From assembly GCF_001547895.1 (NCBI RefSeq), contig NZ_AP014627.1:6760001-6824000 (forward strand): 64,000 nt of DNA, read 5' to 3'. This DNA is from Pseudomonas sp. Os17 (lineage in GTDB: Bacteria > Pseudomonadota > Gammaproteobacteria > Pseudomonadales > Pseudomonadaceae). The notes under the pieces are model-generated. The model ran no database searches. It had not been told where the DNA came from and was given only the letters and a program-made list of their open reading frames with translations. Each line of letters begins with the position of its first letter. Position 1 is the first letter of the stretch. The position numbers and the translations under genes are program-made. Of the stretch, positions 9,117 through 28,077 are shown piece by piece.

Positions 9117-9442
9117 ACGGCACCGCAGGGGCCGCAAAACCTGCCAGCACACTCTGCCTGCCCGACCCCACTCGCACATTCAACAAAGCCCCTATCCCCC
9201 TGCCCAGCACCCGATTTGTCAGGGAATACCGTCCAGTGCCGGAGCCGTTTCGCTTTGTTTTGTAGGGCAAATCCGAGAGAATCCCCCACGCCTTTGAGCG
9301 CCTTGTACCCCTTCGAACGATCAGGCAGTCTCCCGGTGCCGCTGCCAAATCAGCGGCCCGGATGTGGAAGTCTGGGATAAAGGACGTGCAGTCGTCTCAT
9401 TCGAACACCCTTGCCGATGCGGCTTGGGTGAACTCGATCTAT

Positions 9443-9516
9443 GGCGGCTGTGCGTAGGGCACCTTCGGGTGCGCCGGTTCCTTTAGCCCGGTCTTCCACA
9501 CCTGCGCACGGCTGCC
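9443..9516 (+). ncRNA. C4-type antisense RNA, cloverleaf form
   Basis: A closing stem of 16 continuous pairs (9443-9458 with 9501-9516, including G-T pairs) encloses two hairpins. The first is GCACC-TTCG-GGTGC at 9459-9472. The second is a CCGG/CCGG stem (9474-9477 with 9488-9491) whose loop reads TTCCTTTAGC. The segment 9476-9487 is perfectly complementary over 12 bases to 9558-9569, which contains the ribosome binding site of the next gene. A second segment, 9493-9500, pairs with 9526-9533 over 8 bases. This is the architecture of phage P1/P7 C4 RNA, in which two loops pair with the translation start region of a downstream gene. The family name is assigned from memory of that architecture, not from a covariance-model search. 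Confidence 0.75.
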
Positions 9517-9525
9517 ACCCTCTCA

Positions 9526-10981: not shown

Positions 10982-11079
10982 GCAGCGAACGGGTGCTGGC
11001 GCACACGTCGCAGATACCCGCCCCCGAGAAATCGGTAAACTGCCGCCCTCACCGAACACGGACCTCGGATTCAGCCGCC

Positions 11080-11724
11080 ATGGAATTGCAGTACCGCCTC
11101 ACCCCGGCCCACACCGAAGCCCGGCTTGCCGAAAAACTGCCCCAGGCGCTGCTTGAGCATGACCAGTTAGAGACGCGGATCTCCAGCGCCACCTCGCGCT
11201 GGCAGGGGCGCCTGCTCGGCCCGCTGATCCTGCTGCTGTGCCTGATCGCCGCGCCCCTGGCGCTGTATTTCCCCGAGCGGCGCTTTACCCCGGAAAAGAT
11301 CATCGCCCTGGTGCTCTGCGCGCTGGTCTTCATCCCGCTCTGGTGGCGCTTTTCCGGGCGCCTGATCCAGCGCCTACAGGCCCGCACCCGGCACCGGACA
11401 CCGCTGCGCGGCCTGAACCACCGCCTGATCGAGGCCCGCCTGCGGGCGCCCTTGAAGGCTGTCAAGGGCACTTACCACCTGAGCTTCGACGACCAGGGTT
11501 TCACCCTGAACAAACCTCCCAGAGCCAAGAGCAGCATGACCTGGGAGCAGGTCGTGTACCTGCGTGAAGCGGCCAATTTCTATGACGTGGCCAGCGCCGA
11601 AATGCAGCGCAAAGACCAGGCCTGCCGCATCGCCAAACACAGCGAACTGATGGACGCCGAGGAGTATCAGCAAGGGCTGCAAGCCTTTCTGAGCCAATGC
11701 CCAGTCCCGCCGTCCGCCACCTGA
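11080..11724 (+). CDS. YcxB-like membrane protein
   Basis: A 214-residue protein with two adjacent transmembrane segments in its first half, separated by a short loop: GPLILLLCLIAAPLALYF, then IIALVLCALVFIPLWWRF. They are followed by a cytoplasmic beta-rich domain (YHLSFDDQGFTLNKPPRAKSSMTWEQV). Two membrane helices ahead of a PH-like domain containing an S-x-x-x-W-E-Q-V pattern are typical of the YcxB family, whose function is unknown. The start at 11080 puts a charged amphipathic region first. The stop lies 36 bases before the ketosynthase gene on the same strand, so the two could be co-transcribed, but the sequence ties it weakly to that pathway. Confidence 0.65.
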   Translation: MELQYRLTPAHTEARLAEKLPQALLEHDQLETRISSATSRWQGRLLGPLILLLCLIAAPLALYFPERRFTPEKIIALVLCALVFIPLWWRFSGRLIQRLQARTRHRTPLRGLNHRLIEARLRAPLKAVKGTYHLSFDDQGFTLNKPPRAKSSMTWEQVVYLREAANFYDVASAEMQRKDQACRIAKHSELMDAEEYQQGLQAFLSQCPVPPSAT

Positions 11725-11760
11725 CCAAGCCTCCCCCGACGCCCCACACACGGAATTTGC

Positions 11761-12780
11761 ATGCACACATCAGCGTCCTCCCCCCGCCCGGCCCGCGCCC
11801 TGGCCATCCTCGGCACCGGCCACGCCCTGCCGCAGCGGGTGGTCAGCAGTGCCGAGCTGGACCGCCAGCTCGGCCTGGAAGCCGGTAGCGTGGCGCGCAT
11901 CAGCGGGGTGCAGCAGCGCCACGTCGCCGATCCTGCGGACACCGCCGCCAGCCTCGGCGCCCGTGCCGCGCGCCAGGCCCTGCAGGCGGCCGGCCTGGAG
12001 CTTGGCCAGCTGGACCTGATCGTCTGCGCCAGCGGCACTCAGGACCAGGGCATGCCCTGCAACGCCGCGCTGCTGCAACGGGAGCTGGGCCTGGGGCAGT
12101 CGGGCATTCCGGCCATGGACATCAACGCCAGCTGCCTGGGCTTTATCGCCGCCCTGGATACCTTGTCCTGGCCGATCCAGGCCGGGCATTACCGGCGCGT
12201 GCTGCTGGTGTGCGCCGATATCGCTTCCTGCGGCCTGGACTGGCAGCAGGTGGAAGTCTGCGGCATCTTCGGCGACGGCGCGGCGGCGGTGGTGCTGGGC
12301 CCGGGCCATGGCGGGCAGAAGCTCCTCGCCTCGCGCCTGAAGACCTACGCCGAAGGCGCGGCGCTGTGCCAGATCCCCGCCGGCGGTTCGCGCTTTCATC
12401 CGCGGCGCATCGACGTGCCGTTCGAGCCCCTGACCAGCTTCGCCATGCAGGGCAAGGGCGTGTTCCGCCTGGCGGCCAAGCACCTGCCCGAGCTGCTGGA
12501 CGACTTGCTGCAGCAAGCCGCGCTGCCCCTGGCACGGATCGACTGGGTGATCCCTCATCAAGCCAGCCAGCAGGCCATGCAACACGCGGCCAAGCGCCTG
12601 AGCCTGGGGCCGGACAAGGTCATCGATATCTTTGCCCAGCACGGCAATCAGGTGGCGGCCTCGCTGCCCACCGCCCTGGACATCGCGGTGCGCGACGGGC
12701 GCATTCAACGCGGACACACCCTGCTGCTGATCGGCACCGGCGCGGGCCTGTCCCTCGGCGGCATGATCCTGGAGTTCTGA
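11761..12780 (+). CDS. Beta-ketoacyl-ACP synthase III-like enzyme, first gene of a biosynthetic operon
   Basis: A 339-residue thiolase-fold ketosynthase III. The catalytic triad is intact: Cys125 in NASCLGF, His266 in PHQAS and Asn296 in HGNQVAAS. The family condenses an acyl thioester with malonyl-ACP or another acyl thioester, or transfers an acyl group. Its place at the head of a seven-gene operon and its divergence from housekeeping FabH (for example HQAS and HGNQVAAS, where FabH has HQAN and GNTSAAS) point to specialised metabolism. Its stop overlaps the next start by one base (TGATG), so translation is coupled. The acyl substrate cannot be read from the sequence. No acyl carrier protein is encoded nearby, so it probably draws on primary fatty-acid ACP or CoA thioesters. 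Confidence 0.88.
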   Translation: MHTSASSPRPARALAILGTGHALPQRVVSSAELDRQLGLEAGSVARISGVQQRHVADPADTAASLGARAARQALQAAGLELGQLDLIVCASGTQDQGMPCNAALLQRELGLGQSGIPAMDINASCLGFIAALDTLSWPIQAGHYRRVLLVCADIASCGLDWQQVEVCGIFGDGAAAVVLGPGHGGQKLLASRLKTYAEGAALCQIPAGGSRFHPRRIDVPFEPLTSFAMQGKGVFRLAAKHLPELLDDLLQQAALPLARIDWVIPHQASQQAMQHAAKRLSLGPDKVIDIFAQHGNQVAASLPTALDIAVRDGRIQRGHTLLLIGTGAGLSLGGMILEF

Positions 12781-13787
12781 TGAAGATCCTGGTCACCGGC
12801 GGCACCGGTTTTATCGGTCGGCATCTGGTCTGGAAGCTGGCCGCCGAAGGCTGTGAGGTGCAGTTCAGCGGGCGCAACCCCGAGGCGGCGGCCGAGGTGA
12901 TTGCCCACAGCCCGGCGCCGGTGCGCTGGCTGCCCCTGGAGCACGGCAGCCCGTTGGCCAAGCGCCTGCTGGCCGACGCCAGCCGCGAGCATGACGCCAT
13001 CGTGCATTGCGCCGCCCTGTCTTCACCCTGGGGGTCGCCCCAGGCGTTTGCCCGGGCCAACCTCGACTCCACCGCCGAGGTGATCCACGCCTGCGGCAAG
13101 AACCGCATCCCGCGGCTGGTGCATATCTCCACCCCGAGCCTGTACTTCGACTTCAGCGACCGCCTGGGCATCCGCGAAGACCAGCCGCTGCCAAACCCGG
13201 TGAACGACTACGCCCGCAGCAAGGCCCAGGCCGAAACCCTGCTGGCAGACGCCAAGCTGCCCGAGTGCGTGATCCTGCGCCCCCGGGCGGTGTTCGGCCC
13301 CTGGGACGCAACCCTGATGCCGCGCCTGCTGCGGGTGATGCAGCGCGGGGCGATTCCGCTGATGCGCGGCGGCCAGGCCCAGCTGGACCTGACCTGCGTC
13401 GACAATCTGGTGCACGCGGTGTGGCTGGCCCTGACCCGGCCCCTGCCGCGCCCGCTGTGCGTCTACAACCTGAGCAACGCCACACCCCTGGCCTTCAAGG
13501 ACCTGCTGCAACAGATGGCCGAGCACTTCCAGCTGCCGCTGCGCACCCGCCGCCTGCCCTGGCCCCTGGTGCACGGCGTGGCGCACCTGCTGGAGCTCAA
13601 GGCGCGCCTGGGCAACGGCGCCGAACCCTTGATCACCCGCTACGGCGCCGGCGTCCTGGCCTTCAGTCAGACCCTGGACATCAGCGCCATCCAGCGCGAG
13701 CTGGGCTATCGCCCGGTGATCAGCCAGGACCAGGGCATCGCCCAGCACGCCCAATGGTGGCTGGCACAGCAGAGACAACGAGCATGA
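12780..13787 (+). CDS. Extended SDR, NAD(P)-dependent epimerase/dehydratase family
   Basis: A 335-residue extended short-chain dehydrogenase. GGTGFIG (residues 7-13) is the nucleotide-binding glycine motif and Tyr144/Lys148 in NDYARSK are the catalytic pair, preceded by a HISTPSLYF segment supplying the serine. The closest architecture is the 3-beta-hydroxysteroid dehydrogenase/epimerase branch, which also includes OleD, the ketone reductase of bacterial head-to-head acyl condensation. Acting after a ketosynthase III, reduction of a beta-keto acyl product is a reasonable inference. The start overlaps the upstream stop by one base, and the stop overlaps the next start by four (ATGA). Confidence 0.88.
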   Translation: MKILVTGGTGFIGRHLVWKLAAEGCEVQFSGRNPEAAAEVIAHSPAPVRWLPLEHGSPLAKRLLADASREHDAIVHCAALSSPWGSPQAFARANLDSTAEVIHACGKNRIPRLVHISTPSLYFDFSDRLGIREDQPLPNPVNDYARSKAQAETLLADAKLPECVILRPRAVFGPWDATLMPRLLRVMQRGAIPLMRGGQAQLDLTCVDNLVHAVWLALTRPLPRPLCVYNLSNATPLAFKDLLQQMAEHFQLPLRTRRLPWPLVHGVAHLLELKARLGNGAEPLITRYGAGVLAFSQTLDISAIQRELGYRPVISQDQGIAQHAQWWLAQQRQRA

Positions 13788-14638
13788 GCCGCAGCGTGAG
13801 TTTGAAGATCCTCCGGGCCGGCTGGTGCCAGCACCTGGAATGCATGGCCGACCGTGGCGGGCGCCTGGCGCCGGTGCAGTTTCCGGCCCTGTGCGGGCTG
13901 ATCCAGCACCCGGAGCACGGCTGGATTTTGTACGACACCGGCTACGCCGAGCACTTCTTCCAGGCCACCCGCGCCCTGCCCGAGCGCCTGTACCGCAGTG
14001 CGGTGCCGGTGCAGTTGCCGGTGGTCGAACAATTGGGCGCGCAGTTGCATGAGCTGGGCATCGGCCCGGGGGATATCCGCCATGTGATCATTTCCCACTT
14101 TCACGCCGACCATGTCGCCGGGCTGCGGGACTTTGCCAACGCGCGTTTCATCGCCCTGGAAGCCGATTATCGGCATATCGACAGCCTGCGCGGCCAGCGT
14201 TGGCGCGCCACCCTCGGCGGCCATCTGCCGGGCTTGCTGCCGGACGACTTCGGCGCCCGCCTGCGCCTGGCCGAAGCCAGCCCCAGCTGTGCGCTGCCAA
14301 GCTGGATGGCGCCCTTCGAGCAGGGCCTGGACCTGTTCGGTGATGGCAGCCTGATCGGCGTGCCGTTGCCCGGGCACAGCGAAGGCCAGCTGGGCCTGTT
14401 CATCCCCGATGCCCAGGGCCGGCCGGTGTTCCTGGTGGCCGACGCCTGCTGGTCGGTGCCGGCCTGCCGCGCCGAACGCCTGCCCGCTGCACCTGCACTG
14501 TGGTTTGCCAGCGCCGACCGTCAGCAGTACGTGCGCACCTACAGCGGCCTGGGCCAGTTGATCCGCCGCGAACCGGCGGTGGCGGTGCTGCCGTCCCATT
14601 GCACCCAGGCCTGGGAGGCGTTCGCCCATGAACAGTGA
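13784..14638 (+). CDS. Metallo-beta-lactamase fold hydrolase, lactonase-like
   Basis: A 284-residue MBL-fold hydrolase with a complete dinuclear metal site: His105, His107, Asp109 and His110 in HFHADH, His198 in PGHSEGQLG, and Asp220 in VADACW. The layout, with an early LIQHPEHGWILYDTGY segment, resembles N-acyl-homoserine lactonases and related ring-opening hydrolases. In this operon it may hydrolyse a thioester or lactone intermediate; quorum-signal degradation is an alternative. Start ATG overlaps the upstream TGA by four bases. Its 3' end overlaps the next gene by 11 bases. Confidence 0.87.
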   Translation: MSRSVSLKILRAGWCQHLECMADRGGRLAPVQFPALCGLIQHPEHGWILYDTGYAEHFFQATRALPERLYRSAVPVQLPVVEQLGAQLHELGIGPGDIRHVIISHFHADHVAGLRDFANARFIALEADYRHIDSLRGQRWRATLGGHLPGLLPDDFGARLRLAEASPSCALPSWMAPFEQGLDLFGDGSLIGVPLPGHSEGQLGLFIPDAQGRPVFLVADACWSVPACRAERLPAAPALWFASADRQQYVRTYSGLGQLIRREPAVAVLPSHCTQAWEAFAHEQ

Positions 14639-15986
14639 ACGCCTGCTGGGCACCCTGCGCAGCATCGGCGCCTTCGTGTTCAGCCGCTATGCCCTGCGCT
14701 TTCGTCGCCGCGAGCGCCTGGAAGCCTGGCAGGCCCGACGCCTCAAGCACTTCATGGCGCGGGTCATGCCCCGTGGCCAGCGCTTCAACGGGCTGACCCA
14801 CGATGGCCTGCACAGCTTGCCGATCATGGACAAGGCCAGCCTGATGAGCGATTTCGCCGCCTTCAACACCCGCGCCCTGAGCCTGGAACAAGTGTTGCCG
14901 GTGGCCCTGCAGGCCGAGCGTTCCCGGGACTTCAGCCCGACCCTGGGGGACATCACCGTGGGCCTGTCCAGCGGCACCTCGGGGGCCCAGGGGGTGTTCC
15001 TGGTCAGCAGCGCGGAGCGCCAGCGCTGGGCCGGCATCCTGCTGGCACGGACCCTGCCCCGGACCCTGCTGCCCCGGCTGCTGTGCCCCTGGCTGGCGCC
15101 GCTGCGCATCGCCTTCTTCCTGCGAGCCAACAGCCGCCTGTACACCACCCTGGCCAACCGCCGCATCGACTTCGCCTTTCATGACCTGACCCTGGGCCTG
15201 ACCGCCTCCCTGGAGCGCCTGAACCAGCAGAACCCGGACGTGCTGGTGGCCCCGGCCACGGTGCTGCGCGGGTTGGCCCAGGCGGCCCTGGCCGGGCAGC
15301 TGACGATCCGCCCCCGGCACATTCTGTCGGTGGCCGAAGTGCTGGAAAGCACCGACGCCGAAGTGGTGCAGCAGGCCTTCGGGCTCAAGCCCCGGCAGAT
15401 CTATCAGGCCAGCGAAGGCTTCCTCGGCTACACCTGCGAGGCCGGCACCCTGCACCTGAATGAAAGCCACCTGCACATCGAACCGCAGTGGCTGGACCCT
15501 GAGCGCACGCGCTTTCAGCCGATCATCACCGACTTTTCCCGGCGTACGCAGCTGATCGTGCGTTATCGCCTCAACGACATCCTGCGAGTGGCCGAAGCGC
15601 CCTGCCCCTGTGGCCGCGCGGAACGGGCCATCGCCGCCGTGGAAGGCCGCGCCGACGAGATCCTCTGGCTGCCGCGGCTCGACGGCCAGCAGCTGGCACC
15701 GCTCTACCCCGACGTATTGCGCCGCGCCTTGCTGATGCTGGGGGCGACGCTTGAGGAATATGAAATCCACCAGCGCGGGCTGCTCTGGCAGGTCAACCTG
15801 CGCACCTCGGGCGACTACCACGGGCTGTGCCAACGCTTGAGCGAGGCCCTCGCCGAGCTCTGCGCGCAACAGGGGCTGCAGGCGCCACAGCTGAGCTTCG
15901 GCCACTGGCAGGCGCCGCCGCCACAGACGAAAAGACGCCGCCTGCTGATGCTGCAACTGCCCGAGGGACTGCCATGCGTGTATTGA
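14628..15986 (+). CDS. Adenylate-forming enzyme, PaaK/CapK (F390 synthetase-related) family
   Basis: A 452-residue member of the phenylacetate-CoA ligase branch of AMP-forming enzymes. The phosphate-binding loop is GLSSGTSGAQG (residues 112-122). YQASEGFLG is the adenine/substrate motif, RYRLNDILR holds the ribose-binding aspartate, and CPCGRAERAIAAVEGRADEI is the PaaK-type hinge with its CxCGR element. Such enzymes activate a carboxylate as acyl-AMP and pass it to CoA, an amine or a hydroxyl. It resembles the group annotated as F390 synthetase-related or putative adenylate-forming enzyme, for which no reaction is firmly known. It overlaps both neighbours (11 and 13 bases). Confidence 0.85.
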   Translation: MNSERLLGTLRSIGAFVFSRYALRFRRRERLEAWQARRLKHFMARVMPRGQRFNGLTHDGLHSLPIMDKASLMSDFAAFNTRALSLEQVLPVALQAERSRDFSPTLGDITVGLSSGTSGAQGVFLVSSAERQRWAGILLARTLPRTLLPRLLCPWLAPLRIAFFLRANSRLYTTLANRRIDFAFHDLTLGLTASLERLNQQNPDVLVAPATVLRGLAQAALAGQLTIRPRHILSVAEVLESTDAEVVQQAFGLKPRQIYQASEGFLGYTCEAGTLHLNESHLHIEPQWLDPERTRFQPIITDFSRRTQLIVRYRLNDILRVAEAPCPCGRAERAIAAVEGRADEILWLPRLDGQQLAPLYPDVLRRALLMLGATLEEYEIHQRGLLWQVNLRTSGDYHGLCQRLSEALAELCAQQGLQAPQLSFGHWQAPPPQTKRRRLLMLQLPEGLPCVY

Positions 15987-17128
15987 TTCTCGGCGCCCGG
16001 GCCCCGGCCTGCCTGGAGTGGGCCCGGGCCTTCAGCCAAGCCGGCTGGACGGTGACCGTGGCCGATTCCCTGGCCCAGCCCCTGAGCCGCTTCAGCCGCG
16101 CCGCCGAGCACTTCGTGCGCCTGCCGGAGCCGCGCCACGACCCGGATGCCTGGATCGAAGCCCTGGCCGGGGTCATCCGCCAACAGGCCATCGACCTGCT
16201 GCTGCCCACCTGCGAAGAGGTGTTCTACCTGGCCCACGGCCTGGAGCGTCTGCGCCCGCTGTGCCGGGTGTTCACCAGCGATTTCGAGCTGCTGCACCGC
16301 CTGCACCACAAGGGCGATTTCGCCGCCATGACCCAAGGTTGGGATGTGGCCGCGCCGCCGACCCGAGTGCTGCATGACCCGGCCGCGTTGCAGGCACTGG
16401 CCGCCGAGCACGATGCCCTGGTGTTCAAGCCGGCCTATTCGCGCTTCGCCTCCCAGACCCTGATCCGCCCGAGCCCGACGCAGTTGGCCAAGGTCCGGCC
16501 CAGCAGCGAGGCGCCCTGGGTGGCCCAGCAGTTTGTCCCCGGCCAGGAATACTGCAGCTTCAGCGTGCTGGTGGACGGCCAATTGCGCGCCCACAGCAGC
16601 TACCAGCCGCGCTACCGGGTCGGACGTGGCTCGGGAGTCTACTTTCACAGCTGCGCCCCGGCGCCGATCCGCGCCTTCCTGGAGCAGTTCGGCCGGGCCA
16701 CCGGCTACACCGGGCAGGTGGGTTTTGACTTCATCGAGGACCCGCACGGCCGCTTCCACGTGCTGGAGTGCAACCCCAGGGCCACCAGCGGCGTGCACCT
16801 GTTCGACGACCAGCGCGTGCCGTTGGTAGCGGCGCTGGGCAGCGAAGCCGGCACTGCGCTGGAGGCGACCCTGGAACCCAGGATGATCGCCCTGGCCATG
16901 CTGCTTCTGGCCGCGCCGCAACGGGCCTTGAGCAGGGCGTTCTGGCACGACTACCGGCAAGCCCGGGACGTGATCGTCCAGGACGGTGACCGTGGCCCGC
17001 TGACCGCCCAGTTGCTGAGCCTGAGCGAGATCATCGGCCGCGCCCTGACCCGCCGCTGCGGGCTGCTGGCCGCCTCTACTGCCGATATCGAATGGAACGG
17101 CCAACCCCTGGGGGCAACGCGCCGATGA
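15974..17128 (+). CDS. ATP-grasp ligase
   Basis: A 384-residue ATP-grasp protein. The N domain begins MRVLILGARAPACLEWARAF, as in carbamoyl-phosphate-synthase-like members. Lys152 in FKPAYSRF is a nucleotide-binding lysine. Glu265, Asn267 and Arg269 in ECNPRATSG form the metal/phosphate site. These ligases use ATP to make an acyl-phosphate that is attacked by an amine, thiol or hydroxyl. This gives the operon a second carboxylate-activating enzyme beside the AMP-forming one, and suggests amide or ester formation. The true substrates are unknown. The start was set by the ATG at 15974 inside the previous gene; its stop overlaps the next start by four bases. Confidence 0.85.
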   Translation: MRVLILGARAPACLEWARAFSQAGWTVTVADSLAQPLSRFSRAAEHFVRLPEPRHDPDAWIEALAGVIRQQAIDLLLPTCEEVFYLAHGLERLRPLCRVFTSDFELLHRLHHKGDFAAMTQGWDVAAPPTRVLHDPAALQALAAEHDALVFKPAYSRFASQTLIRPSPTQLAKVRPSSEAPWVAQQFVPGQEYCSFSVLVDGQLRAHSSYQPRYRVGRGSGVYFHSCAPAPIRAFLEQFGRATGYTGQVGFDFIEDPHGRFHVLECNPRATSGVHLFDDQRVPLVAALGSEAGTALEATLEPRMIALAMLLLAAPQRALSRAFWHDYRQARDVIVQDGDRGPLTAQLLSLSEIIGRALTRRCGLLAASTADIEWNGQPLGATRR

Positions 17129-18264
17129 AGCTGTGGATGCCCGAGCAACTGGCCCTTGAGCCCCCGAGCGCCGGCGACAGCCACGCCCGGCAGTACGTGC
17201 GCACCTGCGCCGGCGGCGCCCTGATCGGCAACGTCAGCACCGCCCTGGCCCTGCTGGACACCGGCCATCATCAGTTCCCGGTGAGCATCAACCACGGCCA
17301 CGACCCTGTGGATAACTGCTACGTGGTGTCGCCGCAAACCGCCTACAGCGGCTACGCCCGGGAAGAACTGCAGCGCCTGAAACGGCCCTGGCTGGCCCGG
17401 CCGCTGAGGCTGCTGACCCAGGGCGTGGACCGGCTGCTGAGCGCGGCCAAGGTCGACCGGCTGGTGCAGGTCAACAACTGGCTGCTGTCCACCAACCTGT
17501 ACCCGGCCGACTGGGACGGCGCGGACTTGCCGGCGATCACCGAGCTGCTGCGCCGGGCGTTTCCCGACCACGGCTTTGGCTTTCGCTCGCTCAACGACTT
17601 CAGCAACCGCGCCCTGCGCAAGCGCCTGCAAGCCCTGGGCTACCTGGCGATTCCCAGCCGCCAGGTGTACCTGTTCGACGGCCGCCAGGGCGAAAATTCA
17701 GCCTTCCTGCGCCACCACAACACCCGCCTGGATGCCACCCTGCTGCGTCGCAGCCCCTATACGGTGGTGCCCGGCAGCCAGCTGAACGAAGCCGACTTCC
17801 AGCGCATCGAGCAGCTGTACAACCTGCTGTACCTGGATAAATACAGCCGCCTCAACCCCCACTACAGCGCCCAATGGCTGCAACGCGGGCAGGCCGAAGG
17901 CTGGCTGGACGTGCGCGCTCTGCGCAACGCCGAAGGCCGCATCGACGGCGCCCTGGGCTGGTTCGCCAACAGCGCGCTGATCAGCACGCCCATCGTTGGC
18001 TACGACACCGCCCAGCCCCAGCGCGCCGGGCTGTACCGGCAACTGACCAGGCTGTGCCTGCAAGAGGCGGTGAACCGCCGTCAGGTGCTCAACTTCAGCT
18101 CCGGCGCCGCCGCCTTCAAGCGCTTGCGTGGCGGCCAGCCCGAAATCGAATACAGCCTGATCCACGTCGCCCACCTGCCCTGGCCGCGCAGGCTGGTGTG
18201 GCAACTGATGGGGATGCTGCTGCAACGGATCGGCGTACCGCTGATGAGGAAGCTCAAACTGTGA
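17125..18264 (+). CDS. Probable GNAT/FemAB-like acyltransferase of the operon
   Basis: A 379-residue protein of no firmly recognised family. The N-terminal third includes VRTCAGGALIGNVSTALALL and a region with SINHGHDPVDNCYVVSPQTAY. The C-terminal half (ALGWFANSALISTPIVGYD, then AGLYRQLTRLCLQEAV, then LNFSSGAAAFKRLRGGQP) has the strand-helix layout of GNAT-fold acyltransferases of the FemAB/peptidoglycan-interpeptide or GNAT_6 type. In this context it would transfer an acyl group to an amine or be transferred upon. Confidence in the fold is moderate and in the reaction low. Start ATG and stop both overlap their neighbours by four bases. Confidence 0.6.
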   Translation: MKLWMPEQLALEPPSAGDSHARQYVRTCAGGALIGNVSTALALLDTGHHQFPVSINHGHDPVDNCYVVSPQTAYSGYAREELQRLKRPWLARPLRLLTQGVDRLLSAAKVDRLVQVNNWLLSTNLYPADWDGADLPAITELLRRAFPDHGFGFRSLNDFSNRALRKRLQALGYLAIPSRQVYLFDGRQGENSAFLRHHNTRLDATLLRRSPYTVVPGSQLNEADFQRIEQLYNLLYLDKYSRLNPHYSAQWLQRGQAEGWLDVRALRNAEGRIDGALGWFANSALISTPIVGYDTAQPQRAGLYRQLTRLCLQEAVNRRQVLNFSSGAAAFKRLRGGQPEIEYSLIHVAHLPWPRRLVWQLMGMLLQRIGVPLMRKLKL

Positions 18265-19277
18265 ACAGTCACTCGGGCTGGTGGCCCGTCGCCCTCAGCC
18301 GGCAGCTGCACAAGCAGCCCCTGGCCTGCACCCTGCACGGCGTGCCGCTGGTGCTGTTTCGCGACGCCGAGGGCGCCCCTGCCGTATTACCGGACCGCTG
18401 CCCCCATCGCTTTGCGCCGCTGAGCGCCGGCCGGGCGCGCGACGGGCAGATCCAGTGCCCCTACCACGGCTGGCGCTTCGATCCCCAGGGCCGTTGTACT
18501 CAACTGCCCGGGCTGGAGCAGCAGCGTTGCAGCCAGCCCTTGCTGCAGCCGCTGCACAGCTGCGAAGCCCAGGGGCTGGTGTGGGCCAGCCTTGCCAGCG
18601 AGCGGCCGCATGCGCCACCAGTGGCCGCCGCCGAACAGGCCCAGGCCCTGGATGTGTTCTGGATCAGCGACCGGGTGCAGTGCAGCTTGCAGGACGCCGC
18701 GGAGAACTTCCTCGACGGTTTCCACACCCACTTCGTGCACGCCGGCTGGATTCGCCACGATCGCCAGCGCCAGCGCATTAGCGCCTGGGTGCATCGGCTG
18801 GAAGACGGGGTTGAAGCGCAGTACAGCGAAGAAGGCACCCAATCCGGGCTGATTTCCCGGCTGTTCGAAGGCGAACGCGGCCTGAGCATGGGGCGCTTTC
18901 GCCTGCCGGGGCTGGCGGAAATCGAATACCGCGACCGCCAGGGCCGGCTCAACCTGCTGGTCAGCGCCTGGCTGAGCCCCGCCGCCGAGGGCCAGTTGCG
19001 GCTGTTCGCGCGCATCGCCACGGCCCGCGGCCGCCTGCCGGGCTGGATCAAACGCGGCGTGCTGCAGCCGCTGTTCAAGGTGATCCTCAAGCAGGACCGG
19101 CAGATCCTGGAGAACGTCAGCGCCAACCAGCAACGCTTTGCCCGGGTGCCGCTGCGCTGGCAGCGGCCCACGCCTCTGGACAGCTCGCTGGATCTGCTGG
19201 GGCCGTGGATTCGCCAGTTGCTGGAGCAGGGTGAACTGAAGGACTTCCAAGAACGCCGGGAGCAATTCTGGCTGTAA
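18261..19277 (+). CDS. Rieske non-heme iron oxygenase, last gene of the operon
   Basis: A 338-residue oxygenase alpha-subunit-like protein starting at GTG 18261 (GTGA overlap with the previous stop). Cys47/His49 and Cys66/His69 (CPHR and CPYHGW) ligate the [2Fe-2S] cluster. Asp152, His155 and His160 in ENFLDGFHTHFVH supply the mononuclear iron site and the bridging aspartate. Enzymes of this form hydroxylate, desaturate or demethylate small hydrophobic molecules. No ferredoxin or reductase is encoded in the cluster, so electrons must come from elsewhere in the cell. It is probably a late tailoring step. A REP doublet follows directly after the stop. Confidence 0.87.
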   Translation: MNSHSGWWPVALSRQLHKQPLACTLHGVPLVLFRDAEGAPAVLPDRCPHRFAPLSAGRARDGQIQCPYHGWRFDPQGRCTQLPGLEQQRCSQPLLQPLHSCEAQGLVWASLASERPHAPPVAAAEQAQALDVFWISDRVQCSLQDAAENFLDGFHTHFVHAGWIRHDRQRQRISAWVHRLEDGVEAQYSEEGTQSGLISRLFEGERGLSMGRFRLPGLAEIEYRDRQGRLNLLVSAWLSPAAEGQLRLFARIATARGRLPGWIKRGVLQPLFKVILKQDRQILENVSANQQRFARVPLRWQRPTPLDSSLDLLGPWIRQLLEQGELKDFQERREQFWL

Positions 19278-19281
19278 TCCC

Positions 19282-19363
19282 GTAGGAGCCGGCTTGCCGG
19301 CGAACACGCCCTCAAGACAGGCACCGCTCAAACGGGCCCCTTCGCTGGCCAGCCAGCTCCTAC
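19282..19363. repeat. REP doublet (GTAGGAGC...GCTCCTAC family)
   Basis: An element of 82 bases, its ends matching the pair at 6168-6360. It begins four bases after the Rieske gene stop codon and may protect or end that transcript. Confidence 0.75.
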
Positions 19364-19707
19364 GGTTGGCAACGGTGATGCGGGCCCCTTGGAGCCTCTG
19401 TTCGCGGGATTTTCCGGGCAAGACAAGAACCGTTTCAGCCCACCGCCGGCACTGCCGTTCCTCGGCTCGACACGCAACATGCAGACGGCGAGCCCGCGCA
19501 CCGGTATAGTGCGCCCCCTCTTCACGTGGACAGCCGTCGGTAACGAGGCTCAACCCCACGGGAAACCCGAACTAATAACAACCCGCGAAATATAGAACCG
19601 GGACGAACGCTCGCCCCACCGCATTGCCGTGCGTGCAATCAGCGGTGTAACTGAATGTTTCCGTCCGTTCTGCTTTTGCCTACACAAAAAACAGCGAGGA
19701 ATAATCC
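19364..19707. other. Leader region of the symporter gene
   Basis: This gene-free stretch precedes the AGCS symporter. TATAGT at 19505-19510 is a possible -10 element with a weak -35, implying a leader of about 190 bases. I looked for the tandem-aptamer pattern of a glycine riboswitch, often found before such transporters, and did not see it. Confidence 0.35.
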
Positions 19708-21147
19708 ATGCTCGAAGTCATCAACGACTTCCTCTCAGGGAAAGTGCTGATCGTGCTCATTGTCGGGCTCGGCAGCTACTTCACGATCCGCTCGCGTTTC
19801 GTTCAATTGCGCCACTTCCTCCATATGTTCGCGGTGTTCCGCGACAGCCTGAAAAGCAGCGGCGGCCAGCTCAGCTCGTTCCAGGCGCTGATGCTCAGCC
19901 TTGCTGGCCGGGTGGGCGCGGGCAACATCGCCGGCGTCGGCATCGCCGTGACCCTGGGCGGCCCTGGCGCGGTGTTCTGGATGTGGGTGACCGCACTGGT
20001 CGGCATGTCCAGCAGCTTCTTCGAGTGCACCCTGGCCCAGGTCTACAAGCGCGCCGACGGCGACGGCCTGTACCGCGGCGGCCCGGCCTACTACATCCAG
20101 CACGGCCTGAAGCTCAAGGGCATGGCGGTGGTGTTCTCGATCCTGCTGCTGGTCACCTACGGCTTCGCCTTCATCGGCCTGCAGTCCTACACCGTGACGC
20201 ACTCGCTGCAGGACGCCTTTGCCTTTGACCCACGCCACACCGGCATCGTCCTGGCGGTGCTGCTGGCCATCACCTTCATCGGCGGCATCAAGCGCATCGC
20301 CGCGGTGTCCGACCTGCTGGTTCCGATCAAGACCCTGGCCTACATCGCCGTGACCCTGTACGTGATCGGCACCCAGATCGAACACGTGCCGGCCATGCTG
20401 GAAACCATCATCAAGAGCGCCTTCGGCCTCGATCCGGCCTTCGGCGGCCTGCTGGGCAGCGCCATCGTCATGGGCGTGAAGCGTGGCGTGTTCGCCAACG
20501 AAGCCGGCCTGGGCAGTGCGCCGAACGTCGCCGCCGTGGCCGCCGTGAAGCACCCGGGCGCCCAGGGCGTGGTCCAGGCCTTCAGCGTGTTCCTCGACAC
20601 CTTCGTGATCTGCACCTGCACCGCGCTGCTGATCCTGCTGTCGGGCTTCTACACTCCTGGCTTCGAAGGCGATGGCATCGTCCTGACCCAGAACTCGCTG
20701 GCCGCCGTGGTCGGTGACTGGGGCCGCCTGTTCGTCAGCGTCGCGCTGTCGCTGTTCGTCTTCACCTGCATCCTCTACAACTACTACCTGGGCGAAAACA
20801 GCCTGCAGTTCCTCAGCCGCAACCGCGCCGTGCTGATGCTGTTCCGCGGCCTGGTGCTGGCGCTGGTGGTCTGGGGTTCGATGCAGGACCTTTCGACCGT
20901 GTTCGCCTTCGCCGACATCACCATGACCTGCCTGGCCTTCGTCAACCTGGTGGCCCTGGCCATGCTGTTCAAGGTCGGCCTGCGGGTGATGCGCGACTAC
21001 GACGAGCAGCGCCGCGCCGGCGTCGACCAGCCGGTGTTCGACTCGCGCAAGTTCGCCGATCTGGACCTGGACCTGAAGGCCTGGCCTGCCGAACCTTCGG
21101 CCGCCACCCAGGCCGAGCCGCAAGGCGTACCCGCAGCGCAACGCTGA
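19708..21147 (+). CDS. Sodium:alanine/glycine symporter (AGCS family)
   Basis: A 479-residue inner-membrane transporter that couples uptake of alanine or glycine to sodium or protons. Family marks include GRVGAGNIAGVGIAVTLGGPGAVFWMW in the first helices, followed by GLYRGGPAYYIQHGL and FANEAGLGSAPNVAAVA. The last is the AGCS signature with its NEAGLGSAP core. Around ten hydrophobic segments are visible and the C-terminal tail is cytoplasmic. The SD GAGGAA lies 9 bases before the ATG. It is followed by an asparaginase gene with a single REP hairpin in between, so both may serve amino-acid use. Confidence 0.94.
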   Translation: MLEVINDFLSGKVLIVLIVGLGSYFTIRSRFVQLRHFLHMFAVFRDSLKSSGGQLSSFQALMLSLAGRVGAGNIAGVGIAVTLGGPGAVFWMWVTALVGMSSSFFECTLAQVYKRADGDGLYRGGPAYYIQHGLKLKGMAVVFSILLLVTYGFAFIGLQSYTVTHSLQDAFAFDPRHTGIVLAVLLAITFIGGIKRIAAVSDLLVPIKTLAYIAVTLYVIGTQIEHVPAMLETIIKSAFGLDPAFGGLLGSAIVMGVKRGVFANEAGLGSAPNVAAVAAVKHPGAQGVVQAFSVFLDTFVICTCTALLILLSGFYTPGFEGDGIVLTQNSLAAVVGDWGRLFVSVALSLFVFTCILYNYYLGENSLQFLSRNRAVLMLFRGLVLALVVWGSMQDLSTVFAFADITMTCLAFVNLVALAMLFKVGLRVMRDYDEQRRAGVDQPVFDSRKFADLDLDLKAWPAEPSAATQAEPQGVPAAQR

Positions 21148-24136: not shown

Positions 24137-26056
24137 AACCCAATCACAGGCGCCATCGCCCGGCGCATCGGTATTCGCGGGCTGTGTCTGGCACTGGCGC
24201 TGCTGGCGGGCGGCCCCGTTGCCCAGGCCTTCGACCTGTCGAAGATCCGCTGGTGGGAGATGCAGGGCGACATCCTGCTGGACGACCCGGAAACCGCCAC
24301 GCTGCAACTCGAACCCTTTCCCCTGCCCGGGCTGGCCCAGCCACCGGCCCGGCTGATCCTCAGCCAATACCAAGGGCTGTTCTACCTCAACGGCTATGGG
24401 GATGGGCAGTTCCGGCAGCGGGTCTACAAGTCACCGCCCTTGCCGCTGTTCGATGCCCAGGCGCTCCAGGACTGCACGCCCGAGCAGCGCCCCGCAGAGG
24501 CCACCGACAACTGGCCGCCGAGCAAGCAGCTGGAAGCCGCCCTGAGCCTGATCAAACTGAGTTTCGACTGCCAGAGCCCGGGCTGGGAGTTGAGCAATCG
24601 CTATCTGCTGGTGGACAGCCGCGATCCCCAGCGGCCGTTGCTGGCCATCGGTCAGCGCCAGGGCGAGGCACGGATCGACTTCACCCCGCAGCAACCAATC
24701 ACCCCCGAACTGCAGCAGCAATGGCTGCAAGCCCTGCACAAATACCCGAAGCTGCTGGAACCCTTTGACGCCAGCAGCGGCCAGCTGAGCGTCAAGCCCT
24801 ATGCGCCGCCGCCCGGCGCGGATCAGGTCTGGGCGGAGTTCCGCCAGTTGCACGCGCAACTACGCGACGCCAAGGACAAGGCCCCGGGCATCGCCCGGGC
24901 GGAAGCCTTCTTCACCCGCCATGACTTTCGCGCCATCGCCCCCGAGCGCAGTACCTACCCGGGCCTGCTCAACGACATCGCCTATTGGGCCACCGAGGCC
25001 GGCCAGTTGCAGAGCGCCCGGCCCTGGCTGGCCTACGTGCTGCGTCGCGACCCGGGGCGCATGCCGACCTACCTCAACCTGGCGGACCTGGATTGGCGCC
25101 TGTACGAGCAGCAGCCCGCAGACACCCGGCACCGGGGCCGGGCCATGGAGAACTATCGGCTGTACTGCGGGCTGCGCCTGCAACGCCAGCTTGGGGTCCC
25201 CGCCAGGGTCACCCAGCGCCTGGGCCTTGAGGCCCCCAGCGAACAGGCGTGCCAGAGCGCCTGGCCGCTGGTGACAGCGGTGGACCAGGGTGACGCGGGC
25301 GAAGTTCGGCGCCTGCTGCAAAGCGGCCTGCGCGGCGACGTGATCGCCGCCGACGGACGCCCGGCGCTGTTGCACGCCCTGGACAAGCCCGACCTGGACA
25401 TCGCTCGGCTGTTGCTGGCCCATGGCGCCCGCCCACAAGGTCAATACAACGGCCGCACCCAGGTGTTCCTGGCCATGCGCCGCGACCTCAAGGACAACCC
25501 GGACCTGAGCCAGGCCAAACGCCTCAACTTCCTGCTGCAGGCCGGCGCCGCCATCGATGAACAGGATGCCCAGGGCGGCACCGTGCTGCAGGCAATGGCC
25601 AAGGAGCGCGACGACATCGAGCGCTTCAATTGGCTGTTGCAACACCCGCAGGACCTCGACAAACGCAGCGGGCCAGACGGCGAAACCGCGCTGTTCCTGG
25701 CGCTCAAGGGCGGCAACTACGCCGCCGCCAGAGAACTGATAAAGGCCGGTGCCAACCTCAACCTGAGCTACGGCCGCAATGCTTGCGCAGGGCAGCCGAT
25801 TCGCGAAAGCCTGCTGATGATCGTCGCCGAACAGGGCTCGCCCGAGGTCATCAATCCCTGGGTCAGCCAGCAACAGAGCCTGGACATGTTCACCCTGCTG
25901 CTGGAAAAAGGCGCCGACCCCAACCTCGGCCGCTACTGCAAGAACAACGGCTACACCTGGCTGCTGGAGATCATGGCCCGGCGCAAGCGCGACGACATGC
26001 TCAAGGTGCTGCAAGGCTTTGCGCCACCACCGCCGGCGACGGCGTTTCGTCTTTGA
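24134..26056 (+). CDS. Secreted ankyrin-repeat protein, copy 1
   Basis: A 640-residue protein starting at TTG 24134, supported by AAGGGA upstream and by the signal peptide that begins there (MNPITGAIARRIGIRGLCLA, cut likely after VAQA). The first 380 residues are unrecognised, rich in Trp and Pro. From about residue 385 come ankyrin-like units such as DAGEVRRLLQSGLRGDVIAA and DIARLLLAHGARPQGQ, with another at DGETALFLALKGGNYAAARE, and the array continues to near the end. Ankyrin proteins mediate protein contacts; export to the periplasm is inferred. It is tandem with a paralogue at 26152, sharing the start codon and leader. Confidence 0.85.
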   Translation: MNPITGAIARRIGIRGLCLALALLAGGPVAQAFDLSKIRWWEMQGDILLDDPETATLQLEPFPLPGLAQPPARLILSQYQGLFYLNGYGDGQFRQRVYKSPPLPLFDAQALQDCTPEQRPAEATDNWPPSKQLEAALSLIKLSFDCQSPGWELSNRYLLVDSRDPQRPLLAIGQRQGEARIDFTPQQPITPELQQQWLQALHKYPKLLEPFDASSGQLSVKPYAPPPGADQVWAEFRQLHAQLRDAKDKAPGIARAEAFFTRHDFRAIAPERSTYPGLLNDIAYWATEAGQLQSARPWLAYVLRRDPGRMPTYLNLADLDWRLYEQQPADTRHRGRAMENYRLYCGLRLQRQLGVPARVTQRLGLEAPSEQACQSAWPLVTAVDQGDAGEVRRLLQSGLRGDVIAADGRPALLHALDKPDLDIARLLLAHGARPQGQYNGRTQVFLAMRRDLKDNPDLSQAKRLNFLLQAGAAIDEQDAQGGTVLQAMAKERDDIERFNWLLQHPQDLDKRSGPDGETALFLALKGGNYAAARELIKAGANLNLSYGRNACAGQPIRESLLMIVAEQGSPEVINPWVSQQQSLDMFTLLLEKGADPNLGRYCKNNGYTWLLEIMARRKRDDMLKVLQGFAPPPPATAFRL

Positions 26057-26084
26057 CGCGTGGCGCCCGCTGCGCCCCTGAAAC

Positions 26085-26151
26085 AAAGCCCGGCACAACG
26101 GCGCCGATTGCATTACATTGCCGGGCTTTCTACCGGCAAGGGACTGCAACG
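26085..26151 (+). promoter_or_regulatory. Conserved leader shared by both ankyrin genes, copy 2
   Basis: A 10-bp perfect inverted repeat (AAAGCCCGGC at 26085-26094, GCCGGGCTTT at 26120-26129) encloses the GATTGCATTACATT block. Copy 1 retains the layout with two mismatches. It could be a terminator of copy 1, a promoter element or a regulator site. Confidence 0.5.
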
Positions 26152-28077
26152 TTGAAGCTACTCTCAGGCGCCATCGCCCGGCGCATCGGCATTCGCGGGC
26201 TTGGCCTGGCGCTGGCACTGCTGACGGCCGCCCCCGTGGCCCAGGCCTTCGACCTGGACCTGGCCTGGTTCAAATGGTCGGGAATGCGCCGCAACTTCGT
26301 CCTCGACTCCCCGGAAACCGCCACCCTGGAGCTCAAGCCGTTCCCCCTGCCGGGCCTGGAGCGGGTGCCGCTGCGGATTGTCCTGAGCCAGTACCGCGGG
26401 CTGTTCTACTTCAATGCCTACCAGGACCTGAAGTACCGGGAACGGATCTACAAGTCGCCGCCGGTGGCCCTGTTCAGCCCCAAAGAGCTGCGGGCCTGTG
26501 TAGCCCCGGGCGATGACATCCCGGTCAGTGACATCTGGCCCACGAGCAACACCCTGGTCCCCGGCATCAGCCTGACGCCCCTGAGCTTCCAGTGTAAGGA
26601 GCCATCCGAGTGGCAACTTAGCGGGCGCTACCTGCTGGTCGACCAGCGCGATCCGCAGCACCCGCTGCTGGCCATCAGTCACCGCCGGGACCTGAGCCAG
26701 ATGGAATTCACCCCCCTGCAACCCATCAGCGAGGAAACCGGGCAGCAATGGTTGCAGGCCCTGGAGACATTCCCGCGGTGGTTCCGCCCCTTCACCCAAG
26801 GCCGCGGGCCGATCACCATCAACGCCTATGTGCCAGCGCCAGCCTCGAACCCGGACAGTCTCTGGAAAGAGTTCCGCGCGCTGCACGAACAACTGCGCAC
26901 GGCCAAGGACAAACTGCCGGGCATCCGCGCAGTGGAAGACTTCTTCGTCGTCCATGACTTTCGCAGCATCGCCAGCGATCGCCGCGAATACCCCGGCCTG
27001 CTGAATGACATCGCCTTCTGGGCCAGCCAGGCCGGTCAGCTGCAAACTGCCCGCCCCTGGCTCCAGGAAGTGCTGCGCCGCGACCCTGGACGCATGCCGA
27101 CCTACCTCAACCTGGCGGACCTGGACTGGGCGCTGTTCGAACAGCGGCCATTGGACAACGCCCATCAGGGCCGGGCCATCGAGGGCTATCGGGTGTATTG
27201 CGGCCTGCGCCTGCGACGCCAGATGAGCATCCCGCCCCGGGTCCTGCAGCGCCTGGGCCTGAGCGCCGCCAACCCACAGGCGTGCCAGGGCTTCTGGCCG
27301 CTGGTGGACGCGGTGGATGCCGGCGACCTGACCCAAGTGCAGCGCCTGCTGGCCAGCGGCATCAGCGGCGAGGTCATGGCCGACGATGGCCGCAGCGCCC
27401 TGTTGCACGCCCTGGACGCGCCGCACCTGGACATCGCCAGGCTGCTCCTGGAGCACGGCGCCCACACCAGCGGCCTGTACAACTGGACCACCCTGGCGAC
27501 CCTGGCCATGCGCCGCGATCTGGGCGACAGCCCCGACCTGAGCCAGGGCGGACGCCTGAAGTTCCTCATCAAGGCCGGTGTCGCCCTCGACGAACCCGAC
27601 AGCCAGGGCGTGACGCCCCTGATGCAGATGGCCGAGAACAAGCGCAGCCTGCAAGGCTTCACTTGGCTGCTGCAACACCCGCAAAACCTCGACCGGCGCA
27701 CAACCGACAATGGTGAAACCGCGCTGTATCGGGCGTTTTCGGGCAACAACCAGGTGGCCATGAGGCAGCTGATAGAGGCCGGTGCCAACCTCAACCTGAG
27801 CTACGGCCGCGGCACCTGCTACAACCAGCCCGTCGGCGAAAGCCTGCTGACCCTGGTGGCCGACAAGACCTCCGCCGACGCCCAGTCGCCCTCCGTCAGC
27901 CAGCAGGACACCCTGGAGCTGTTCGCCCTGCTGCTGGAGAAAGGCGCCGACCCGACTGTCGGCCAGCACTGCGAGAAAAAGGGCTACACCCTGTTGCTGG
28001 AAGCCATCGCCCGGAACAAACGCGAGGACATGCTCAAGGTGCTGCAGCGCTACGTTCCCGCCCCACCTGCCGGCTGA
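26152..28077 (+). CDS. Secreted ankyrin-repeat protein, copy 2
   Basis: A 641-residue paralogue of the gene before it, with the same TTG start, signal peptide (KLLSGAIARRIGIRGLGLAL, then APVAQAF), unknown N-terminal region and ankyrin units (DLTQVQRLLASGISGEVMAD, then DIARLLLEHGAHTSG, then NNQVAMRQLIEAGANLNLSY). The two are alike over their full length but have diverged in many positions, so the duplication is not recent. The frame stays open far upstream into the first gene, but the TTG with its AAGGGA binding site matches copy 1 precisely. A GC-rich hairpin follows the stop. Confidence 0.85.
   Translation: MKLLSGAIARRIGIRGLGLALALLTAAPVAQAFDLDLAWFKWSGMRRNFVLDSPETATLELKPFPLPGLERVPLRIVLSQYRGLFYFNAYQDLKYRERIYKSPPVALFSPKELRACVAPGDDIPVSDIWPTSNTLVPGISLTPLSFQCKEPSEWQLSGRYLLVDQRDPQHPLLAISHRRDLSQMEFTPLQPISEETGQQWLQALETFPRWFRPFTQGRGPITINAYVPAPASNPDSLWKEFRALHEQLRTAKDKLPGIRAVEDFFVVHDFRSIASDRREYPGLLNDIAFWASQAGQLQTARPWLQEVLRRDPGRMPTYLNLADLDWALFEQRPLDNAHQGRAIEGYRVYCGLRLRRQMSIPPRVLQRLGLSAANPQACQGFWPLVDAVDAGDLTQVQRLLASGISGEVMADDGRSALLHALDAPHLDIARLLLEHGAHTSGLYNWTTLATLAMRRDLGDSPDLSQGGRLKFLIKAGVALDEPDSQGVTPLMQMAENKRSLQGFTWLLQHPQNLDRRTTDNGETALYRAFSGNNQVAMRQLIEAGANLNLSYGRGTCYNQPVGESLLTLVADKTSADAQSPSVSQQDTLELFALLLEKGADPTVGQHCEKKGYTLLLEAIARNKREDMLKVLQRYVPAPPAG

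Follow-up and report, generated by a model that had tools for sequence, protein, structure and literature searches.

A fully overlapping seven-gene operon of Pseudomonas sp. Os17, with a ketosynthase III core found in three bacterial phyla, for a putative acyl-derived metabolite

The window analysed here, a 64,000-nucleotide stretch of the genome of Pseudomonas sp. Os17 (contig NZ_AP014627.1, positions 6,760,001 to 6,824,000; the assembly is a single 6.9 Mb contig), contains an operon of seven genes, termed A to G, at 11761-19277, in which all genes lie on the + strand with no intergenic gap. Judged from sequence comparison, this operon is two-layered, i.e. it consists of a four-gene core (A-D), which is distributed far more widely than Pseudomonas, and of accessory genes that vary between loci. 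The operon may make a small acyl-derived metabolite through a core machine and a set of accessory finishing enzymes; we assign this reading, with the reactions, step order, and product proposed below, a probability of about 0.4. The seven genes are as follows.

Gene A, 11761-12780, + strand: ketosynthase III (KSIII), Cys125-His266-Asn296
Gene B, 12780-13787, + strand: extended short-chain dehydrogenase/reductase (SDR), a reductase with S117, Y144xxxK148, and R32
Gene C, 13784-14638, + strand: metallo-beta-lactamase (MBL)-fold hydrolase with a complete two-metal ligand set
Gene D, 14628-15986, + strand: PaaK/F390-synthetase-like adenylate-forming enzyme
Gene E, 15974-17128, + strand: ATP-grasp ligase
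Gene F, 17125-18264, + strand: tandem-GNAT transferase of the FemX/MprF/Sbb17 fold class (predicted fold)
Gene G, 18261-19277, + strand: Rieske non-haem iron oxygenase (terminal oxygenase), GTG start

From A to G, the junctions overlap by 1, 4, 11, 13, 4, and 4 bases, and the coordinates, single strand, and six overlaps given in the first-pass annotation of the window were all exact. Close relatives of D were sought on contigs representing one genome per species, a set from which records very near the genome of Os17 may be missing, and this yielded 24 named loci with 55-98% identity in D (98% in strain FD6). In 23 of these loci, all seven genes follow the order of the window; one of the 23 (L031) is truncated in its last gene by the end of the contig. 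The remaining locus, L043, is from the insect symbiont Candidatus Dactylopiibacterium carminicum: A is broken, F and G are undetectable, and the operon seems to decay in this symbiont. The six overlap lengths are identical to those of the window in 18 of the 24 loci, a count that leans somewhat toward agreement, as the start codon nearest the homology-predicted start was chosen; a pattern shared so widely is unlikely to be due to chance. The five measurable overlaps of L031 are also the same as in the window, and those of L040-L042 deviate at one to three junctions. Whether the set stays together in other genomes had been left as a point to check; it proved to be strongly conserved, and the idea of a single-genome curiosity was rejected on the same conservation.

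Within the genus, the distribution is patchy, with matches over the cut-off of TIGR02304, the family of D, in 13 of 199 genomes; ten of these carry the operon type of the window and three another. The operon is present in Pseudomonas protegens strains; in one of them, 14B2 (L022), E and F form a single 769-codon frame (11347-13656), which could reflect either a genuine fusion or a sequencing error. Mirror-tree correlations, calculated from 8 to 21 loci per pair after removal of ten close relatives from Pseudomonas and the broken L043 and L087 (12 rows in all), ranged from 0.76 to 0.95 for all 21 gene pairs, and none of 2000 permutations gave values as high. We do not take these correlations as proof of joint evolution, because shared species history also raises r.

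The core extends well beyond these relatives. B and C adjoin D in every genus genome that exceeds the TIGR02304 cut-off (13 of 199 searched) and in every such phylum genome (7 of 398 searched), with the genome of Os17 counted in both sets. In three further phylum genomes under the cut-off, E and G come after A-D, and F was not detected; in one of them (G248), B is in two pieces. Among eight phylum genomes with a match to E of at least 217 bits, E lies beside the core in six and was not within the stretch examined in two (G208 and G478). In a plasmid collection, 13 records were examined of 62 matching (among the matches listed), and A-D form one run in 11 of the 13. In two Bacillota (Pontibacillus and Paenibacillus), E sits between A and B, and in Fusobacterium vincentii, A is shifted to the end. 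At 2.1 and 3.2 Mb, two of the 'plasmid' records appear to be chromosomes. A pair of large Pseudomonas plasmids (L100/L101) differs in arrangement, with core relatives dispersed among hypothetical genes: in pBASL58 the genes extend over 13 kb, and pMPPla107 has D and E only. Judging by the core runs in the sampled records, the core is present in Pseudomonadota, Bacillota, and Fusobacteriota. The accessory genes around it also vary in position and presence, e.g. E is on the opposite strand right after G on Rhizobium and Roseateles plasmids, and two alphaproteobacterial plasmids carry A-D without E, F, and G and with a sulfotransferase and a TetR gene alongside. On a Paraburkholderia plasmid (L096), a Rieske-like stretch of ~170 residues follows F at 13063-13557 and is absent from the incomplete gene table of that record.

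The accessory genes fall into two types. In type 1, to which the window and the Rhizobium and Roseateles plasmids belong, they are E, F, and G, and in type 2, they encode a PAP2 phosphatase, a fatty-acid hydroxylase, and a fatty-acid desaturase. Type 2 was found in Pseudomonas (3/199), other gammaproteobacteria, Burkholderia stagnalis, and Escherichia coli, and its five rows form one clade with 100/100 support in a concatenated core tree of 31 loci. Of 5426 complete E. coli genomes, 672 contain the type-2 gene D (670 chromosomal places and 2 plasmid places), and the whole type-2 operon was seen in two of these chromosomes, those of Nissle 1917 and CFT073, as well as in a plasmid record. In both chromosomes, the operon is flanked by narI, the tRNA-Tyr genes, and purU, and it occupies the following positions of the extracted loci.

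L109, 4200-11081, E. coli type-2 operon (Nissle 1917 and CFT073 pair): core and PAP2, FA_hydroxylase, and FA_desaturase genes
L112, 316-7197, E. coli type-2 operon (same pair): core and PAP2, FA_hydroxylase, and FA_desaturase genes

The identities between the window and E. coli are 42% (A), 42% (D), 40% (B), and 37% (C). A transposon screen of CFT073 lists c1689, a 'putative 3-oxoacyl (acyl carrier protein) synthase III', with a fitness factor of 8.47 (PMC3855560). We equate c1689 with core gene A on the basis of its product name and its number, which falls between those of narX (c1682) and rssA (c1698); the CFT073 record fits.

The condensing enzyme A exceeds the cut-off of the PRK09352 beta-ketoacyl-acyl carrier protein (ACP) synthase 3 subfamily (260.5 bits; cut-off, 249), falls short of that of TIGR00747 fabH (242.3 bits; cut-off, 292.1), and just misses that of PRK07204 (384.6 bits; cut-off, 402). 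Its nearest solved chains are 4ryb, 4v2p, and CorB 4yuc, which score about equally: 215.3 bits for 4ryb, the best FabH, 213.8 for 4v2p (MxnB), and 207 for CorB. MxnB and CorB are enzymes that join two chains. Chains that we take to be OleA-type (3fk5, 3row, and others) reach at most 69.7 bits, the Pseudomonas quinolone signal (PQS) enzyme 3h76 reaches 105.1 bits, and PqsC (6esz) reaches 50.9 bits. The triad Cys125/His266/Asn296 is present in all 32 aligned rows, the locus with the broken A (L043) being left out of this alignment. The Trp and Arg of 4ryb that presumably act at the coenzyme A (CoA) site are mostly not retained at the aligned positions of A (Trp in 5/32 and Arg in 9/32 rows). In a tree with 10 of the 12 non-core KSIII proteins, taken from seven of the genomes (L113 and L132 are absent), the 32 core rows form a separate group with branch support of 100/99, although the tree carries a warning that long branches meet. 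On the missed TIGR00747 cut-off and this separate grouping, a canonical FabH identity for A was rejected. As a side observation, A is the best match to the FabH model in the genome of Os17, where no gene exceeds the FabH cut-off; the same absence was observed in two other genomes (G093 and G248).

B belongs to PF01370, and its best NCBIfam relative is OleD, a 2-alkyl-3-oxoalkanoate reductase, at 163.3 bits, far below the cut-off of 580; OleD reduces the product of a KSIII, a 2-alkyl-3-oxo acid. C belongs to PF00753 (Lactamase_B), and its top named relatives are lactonases (AttM, 74.1 bits; 4-pyridoxolactonase, 53.9 bits), all far under their cut-offs; its solved relatives are lactonases too. 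D exceeds the cut-off of TIGR02304, 'F390 synthetase-related' (388.7 bits; cut-off, 251.9), matches the phenylacetate-CoA ligase 4r1l weakly over residues 291-348, and has no match in Pfam, the AMP-binding family included. Ser117, Tyr144, and Lys148 of B were found in 33/33 loci, and the metal ligands of C (H105, H107, D109, and H110 of the HxHxDH motif, with H198, D220, and H272) and Lys435 of D in 33/33 rows.

Among the accessory proteins, E exceeds the cut-off of the PRK06849 (NF005315) ATP-grasp family (450.2 bits; cut-off, 406) and retains the ATP-grasp residues K152, E265, and N267 in 24/24 rows. Its predicted fold is of the PurD/PylC/L-amino-acid-ligase type with the ATP/Mg residues present, a class assignment to be read together with the similar Z scores of PurK and biotin carboxylase. 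The window's own F has no Pfam family match; its predicted fold resembles the FemX/MprF/Sbb17 aminoacyl-tRNA-dependent transferases, the nearest solved folds, over both GNAT halves. Two close homologues of F and one from Paenibacillus pass the cut-off of PF13480 (Acetyltransf_6). The first-pass annotation had called F a possible acyltransferase, a label that agrees with these homologues. The F proteins are basic (isoelectric point, 9.0-10.2 in 19/19), as would suit proteins that bind RNA, but B and D are likewise basic (medians, 9.3). G combines PF00355 with VanA_C and has DdmC (3gb4) and SxtT (6wn3) as solved relatives; C47, H49, C66, and H69 (CxH/CxxH), H155, H160, and D279 are conserved in at least 95% of 21 rows, including the L096 fragment. 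The catalytic roles of the aligned residues in A, B, C, D, E, and G are those that we presume from family knowledge. The catalytic residues recorded as intact in the window were thus also conserved in the alignment of 33 loci (32 rows for A), and with the active sites kept, nothing in the sequence points to decay of the operon in the window.

In the pathway that we favour, A would perform a Claisen condensation of two acyl units and B would convert the new beta-ketone into a beta-hydroxy group with NAD(P)H, after which the metallo-hydrolase C would free the acid from its thioester or open a lactone. D would re-activate the acid as an acyl-adenylate or a thioester, E would join it to an amine or amino acid via an acyl-phosphate, F would add a further aminoacyl group, possibly from tRNA, or an acyl group, and G would hydroxylate the product with O2 and electrons from the host's carriers. 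The acyl donors and the carrier protein would be supplied by primary metabolism. This step order was chosen because the best relative of B, OleD, reduces a ketosynthase product; because A has mostly not retained the FabH-aligned Trp and Arg of the CoA site and gives similar scores with MxnB and CorB; and because the accessory enzymes of type 2 are lipid enzymes. The PAP2, FA_hydroxylase, and FA_desaturase genes that accompany the type-2 core point to a lipid-like product, and a hydroxyl group on it would fit the sulfotransferase genes adjoining the two A-D-only loci. The earlier interpretation of the locus as a compact biosynthetic operon is supported, whereas the acyl-derived, amide-linked, and oxidised chemistry proposed with it is compatible with the enzymes and has to be read as a conjecture drawn from them.

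The favoured pathway and its two closest rivals part mainly over where D acts and what D makes. In the first rival, which we consider unlikely, D would activate a free carboxylic acid starter, A would extend it with malonyl-ACP, B would reduce the chain, C would end it as a PqsE-like thioesterase, and E, F, and G would decorate the product. Such an order has the logic of the pqsABCDE alkylquinolone pathway, which shares acid activation, KSIII condensation, an MBL thioesterase, and a later monooxygenase with the scheme, and it would suit D as a member of the PaaK class, which are usually CoA ligases, and the scores of A against FabH models (242-260 bits). However, the CoA-site Trp and Arg of FabH are mostly lost in A, and the nearest named relative of B works on a 2-alkyl-3-oxo acid; the pqs pathway itself has neither an extended SDR nor an ATP-grasp enzyme, and its enzymes are not close homologues, as the scores of 3h76 and 6esz against A indicate.

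Still less probable is a second rival modelled on olefin-type OleABCD systems, in which A would form a 2-alkyl-3-keto acid, B would reduce it, D would close a beta-lactone by OleC-like adenylation, and C would open or decarboxylate it, giving a beta-lactone or a derivative. The four classes correspond to OleABCD in outline, since these systems likewise cluster a KSIII, an extended SDR, an adenylating enzyme, and a hydrolase; OleD is the best NCBIfam match of B, and the relatives of C are lactonases. However, A is far from the OleA-type chains (at most 69.7 bits, compared with 215.3 for the best FabH) and nearer to FabH and MxnB, D has no Pfam AMP-binding match, C is an MBL enzyme and not an alpha/beta hydrolase like OleB, and the window operon adds ATP-grasp, tandem-GNAT, and Rieske genes. 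Membership in OleABCD was rejected on the features tested, i.e. the OleD cut-off, proximity to OleA, the AMP-binding family, and the alpha/beta hydrolase. It is highly improbable that the operon is catabolic and serves the breakdown of a foreign lactone, amide, or aromatic compound: lactonase-like MBL, PaaK-like, Rieske, and SDR enzymes are common in catabolism, and by eye two loci with F undetected (L088 and L089) have nearby frames resembling aromatic monooxygenases, but every whole core locus compared (32/32 rows) has a carbon-carbon bond-forming enzyme with an intact triad, none of the loci seen keeps a transporter or regulator with the set, and the type-2 accessory enzymes are lipid-building membrane enzymes.

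Returning to the favoured pathway, a bolder version of it is doubtful: A-D would be a new carrier-protein-free acyl module, present in at least three phyla, with exchangeable finishing enzymes. In Pseudomonas, the ATP-grasp ligase, a tRNA-dependent aminoacyl transferase, and the Rieske oxygenase would finish a hydroxylated aminoacyl lipid; in E. coli, the phosphatase, hydroxylase, and desaturase would finish a modified lipid; and the products might form a new class of bacterial lipid mediators.

In the surroundings of the operon, a C4 antisense RNA, a type of RNA known from phages, was identified at 9437-9522 on the + strand (Rfam RF01695, 79.2 bits), ~2.2 kb upstream. A phage origin was rejected, as the proteins of A, D, E, and F, the four that were searched, had no PHROGs match at E 0.001. 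A 195-codon stretch of reading frame at 11137-11724 (+), without a Pfam or NCBIfam match, stops 36 bases 5' of gene A; relatives of this frame precede the operon in 12 of the 24 named loci, but it is present in only 2 of 57 sampled relative genomes, the window's own included. The GC content is 67-71% in the operon genes, 63-65% just upstream, and 69% in ansA downstream. A scan of 11000-19800 detected no promoter-like sites within the operon and no excess of terminator-like sites (5, compared with 4.5 in shuffled sequences). Further downstream, at 24260-28077 (+), two neighbouring frames of ~600 codons are alike near their starts and, by eye, are apparently tandem paralogues.

Among the papers listed by our literature searches, which did not extend to subscription papers or MIBiG, none gives a description of the seven-gene set or its pathway, and the family names TIGR02304, PRK06849, and PRK07204 had no occurrence in the literature searched. 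A 2009 survey of ATP-grasp gene neighbourhoods by Iyer and colleagues may list such operons. Only single genes of the set surface in the literature searched, e.g. a transposon mutant of a 'coenzyme F390 synthetase' of Pseudomonas syringae pv. actinidiae, for which either operon type is possible, in a table of PMC9823363. The consulted parts of PMC5467263, PMC5501837, PMC2649909, and PMC2922099 do not describe the set. The Pbo cluster of P. syringae pv. phaseolicola likewise combines KSIII-like and ATP-grasp genes in Pseudomonas, but its table lists nonribosomal peptide synthetase-type and carrier domains, transporters, and a 2-oxoglutarate dioxygenase, and its main text contains none of the words Rieske, metallo, epimerase, and F390 (PMC8473136). 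Identity with the Pbo cluster was rejected on these differences.

These data place a four-enzyme core without a known product in distant bacteria, with its gene D in roughly one-eighth of the complete E. coli genomes. Its members are currently annotated piecemeal, as FabH-like, epimerase, MBL, and 'F390 synthetase' proteins. Identification of the product would put a name to a metabolite made by model and probiotic strains and would also provide a search handle for an entire gene-cluster family. If the bolder version were true, E. coli Nissle 1917 and P. protegens would be among the sources of such lipid mediators.

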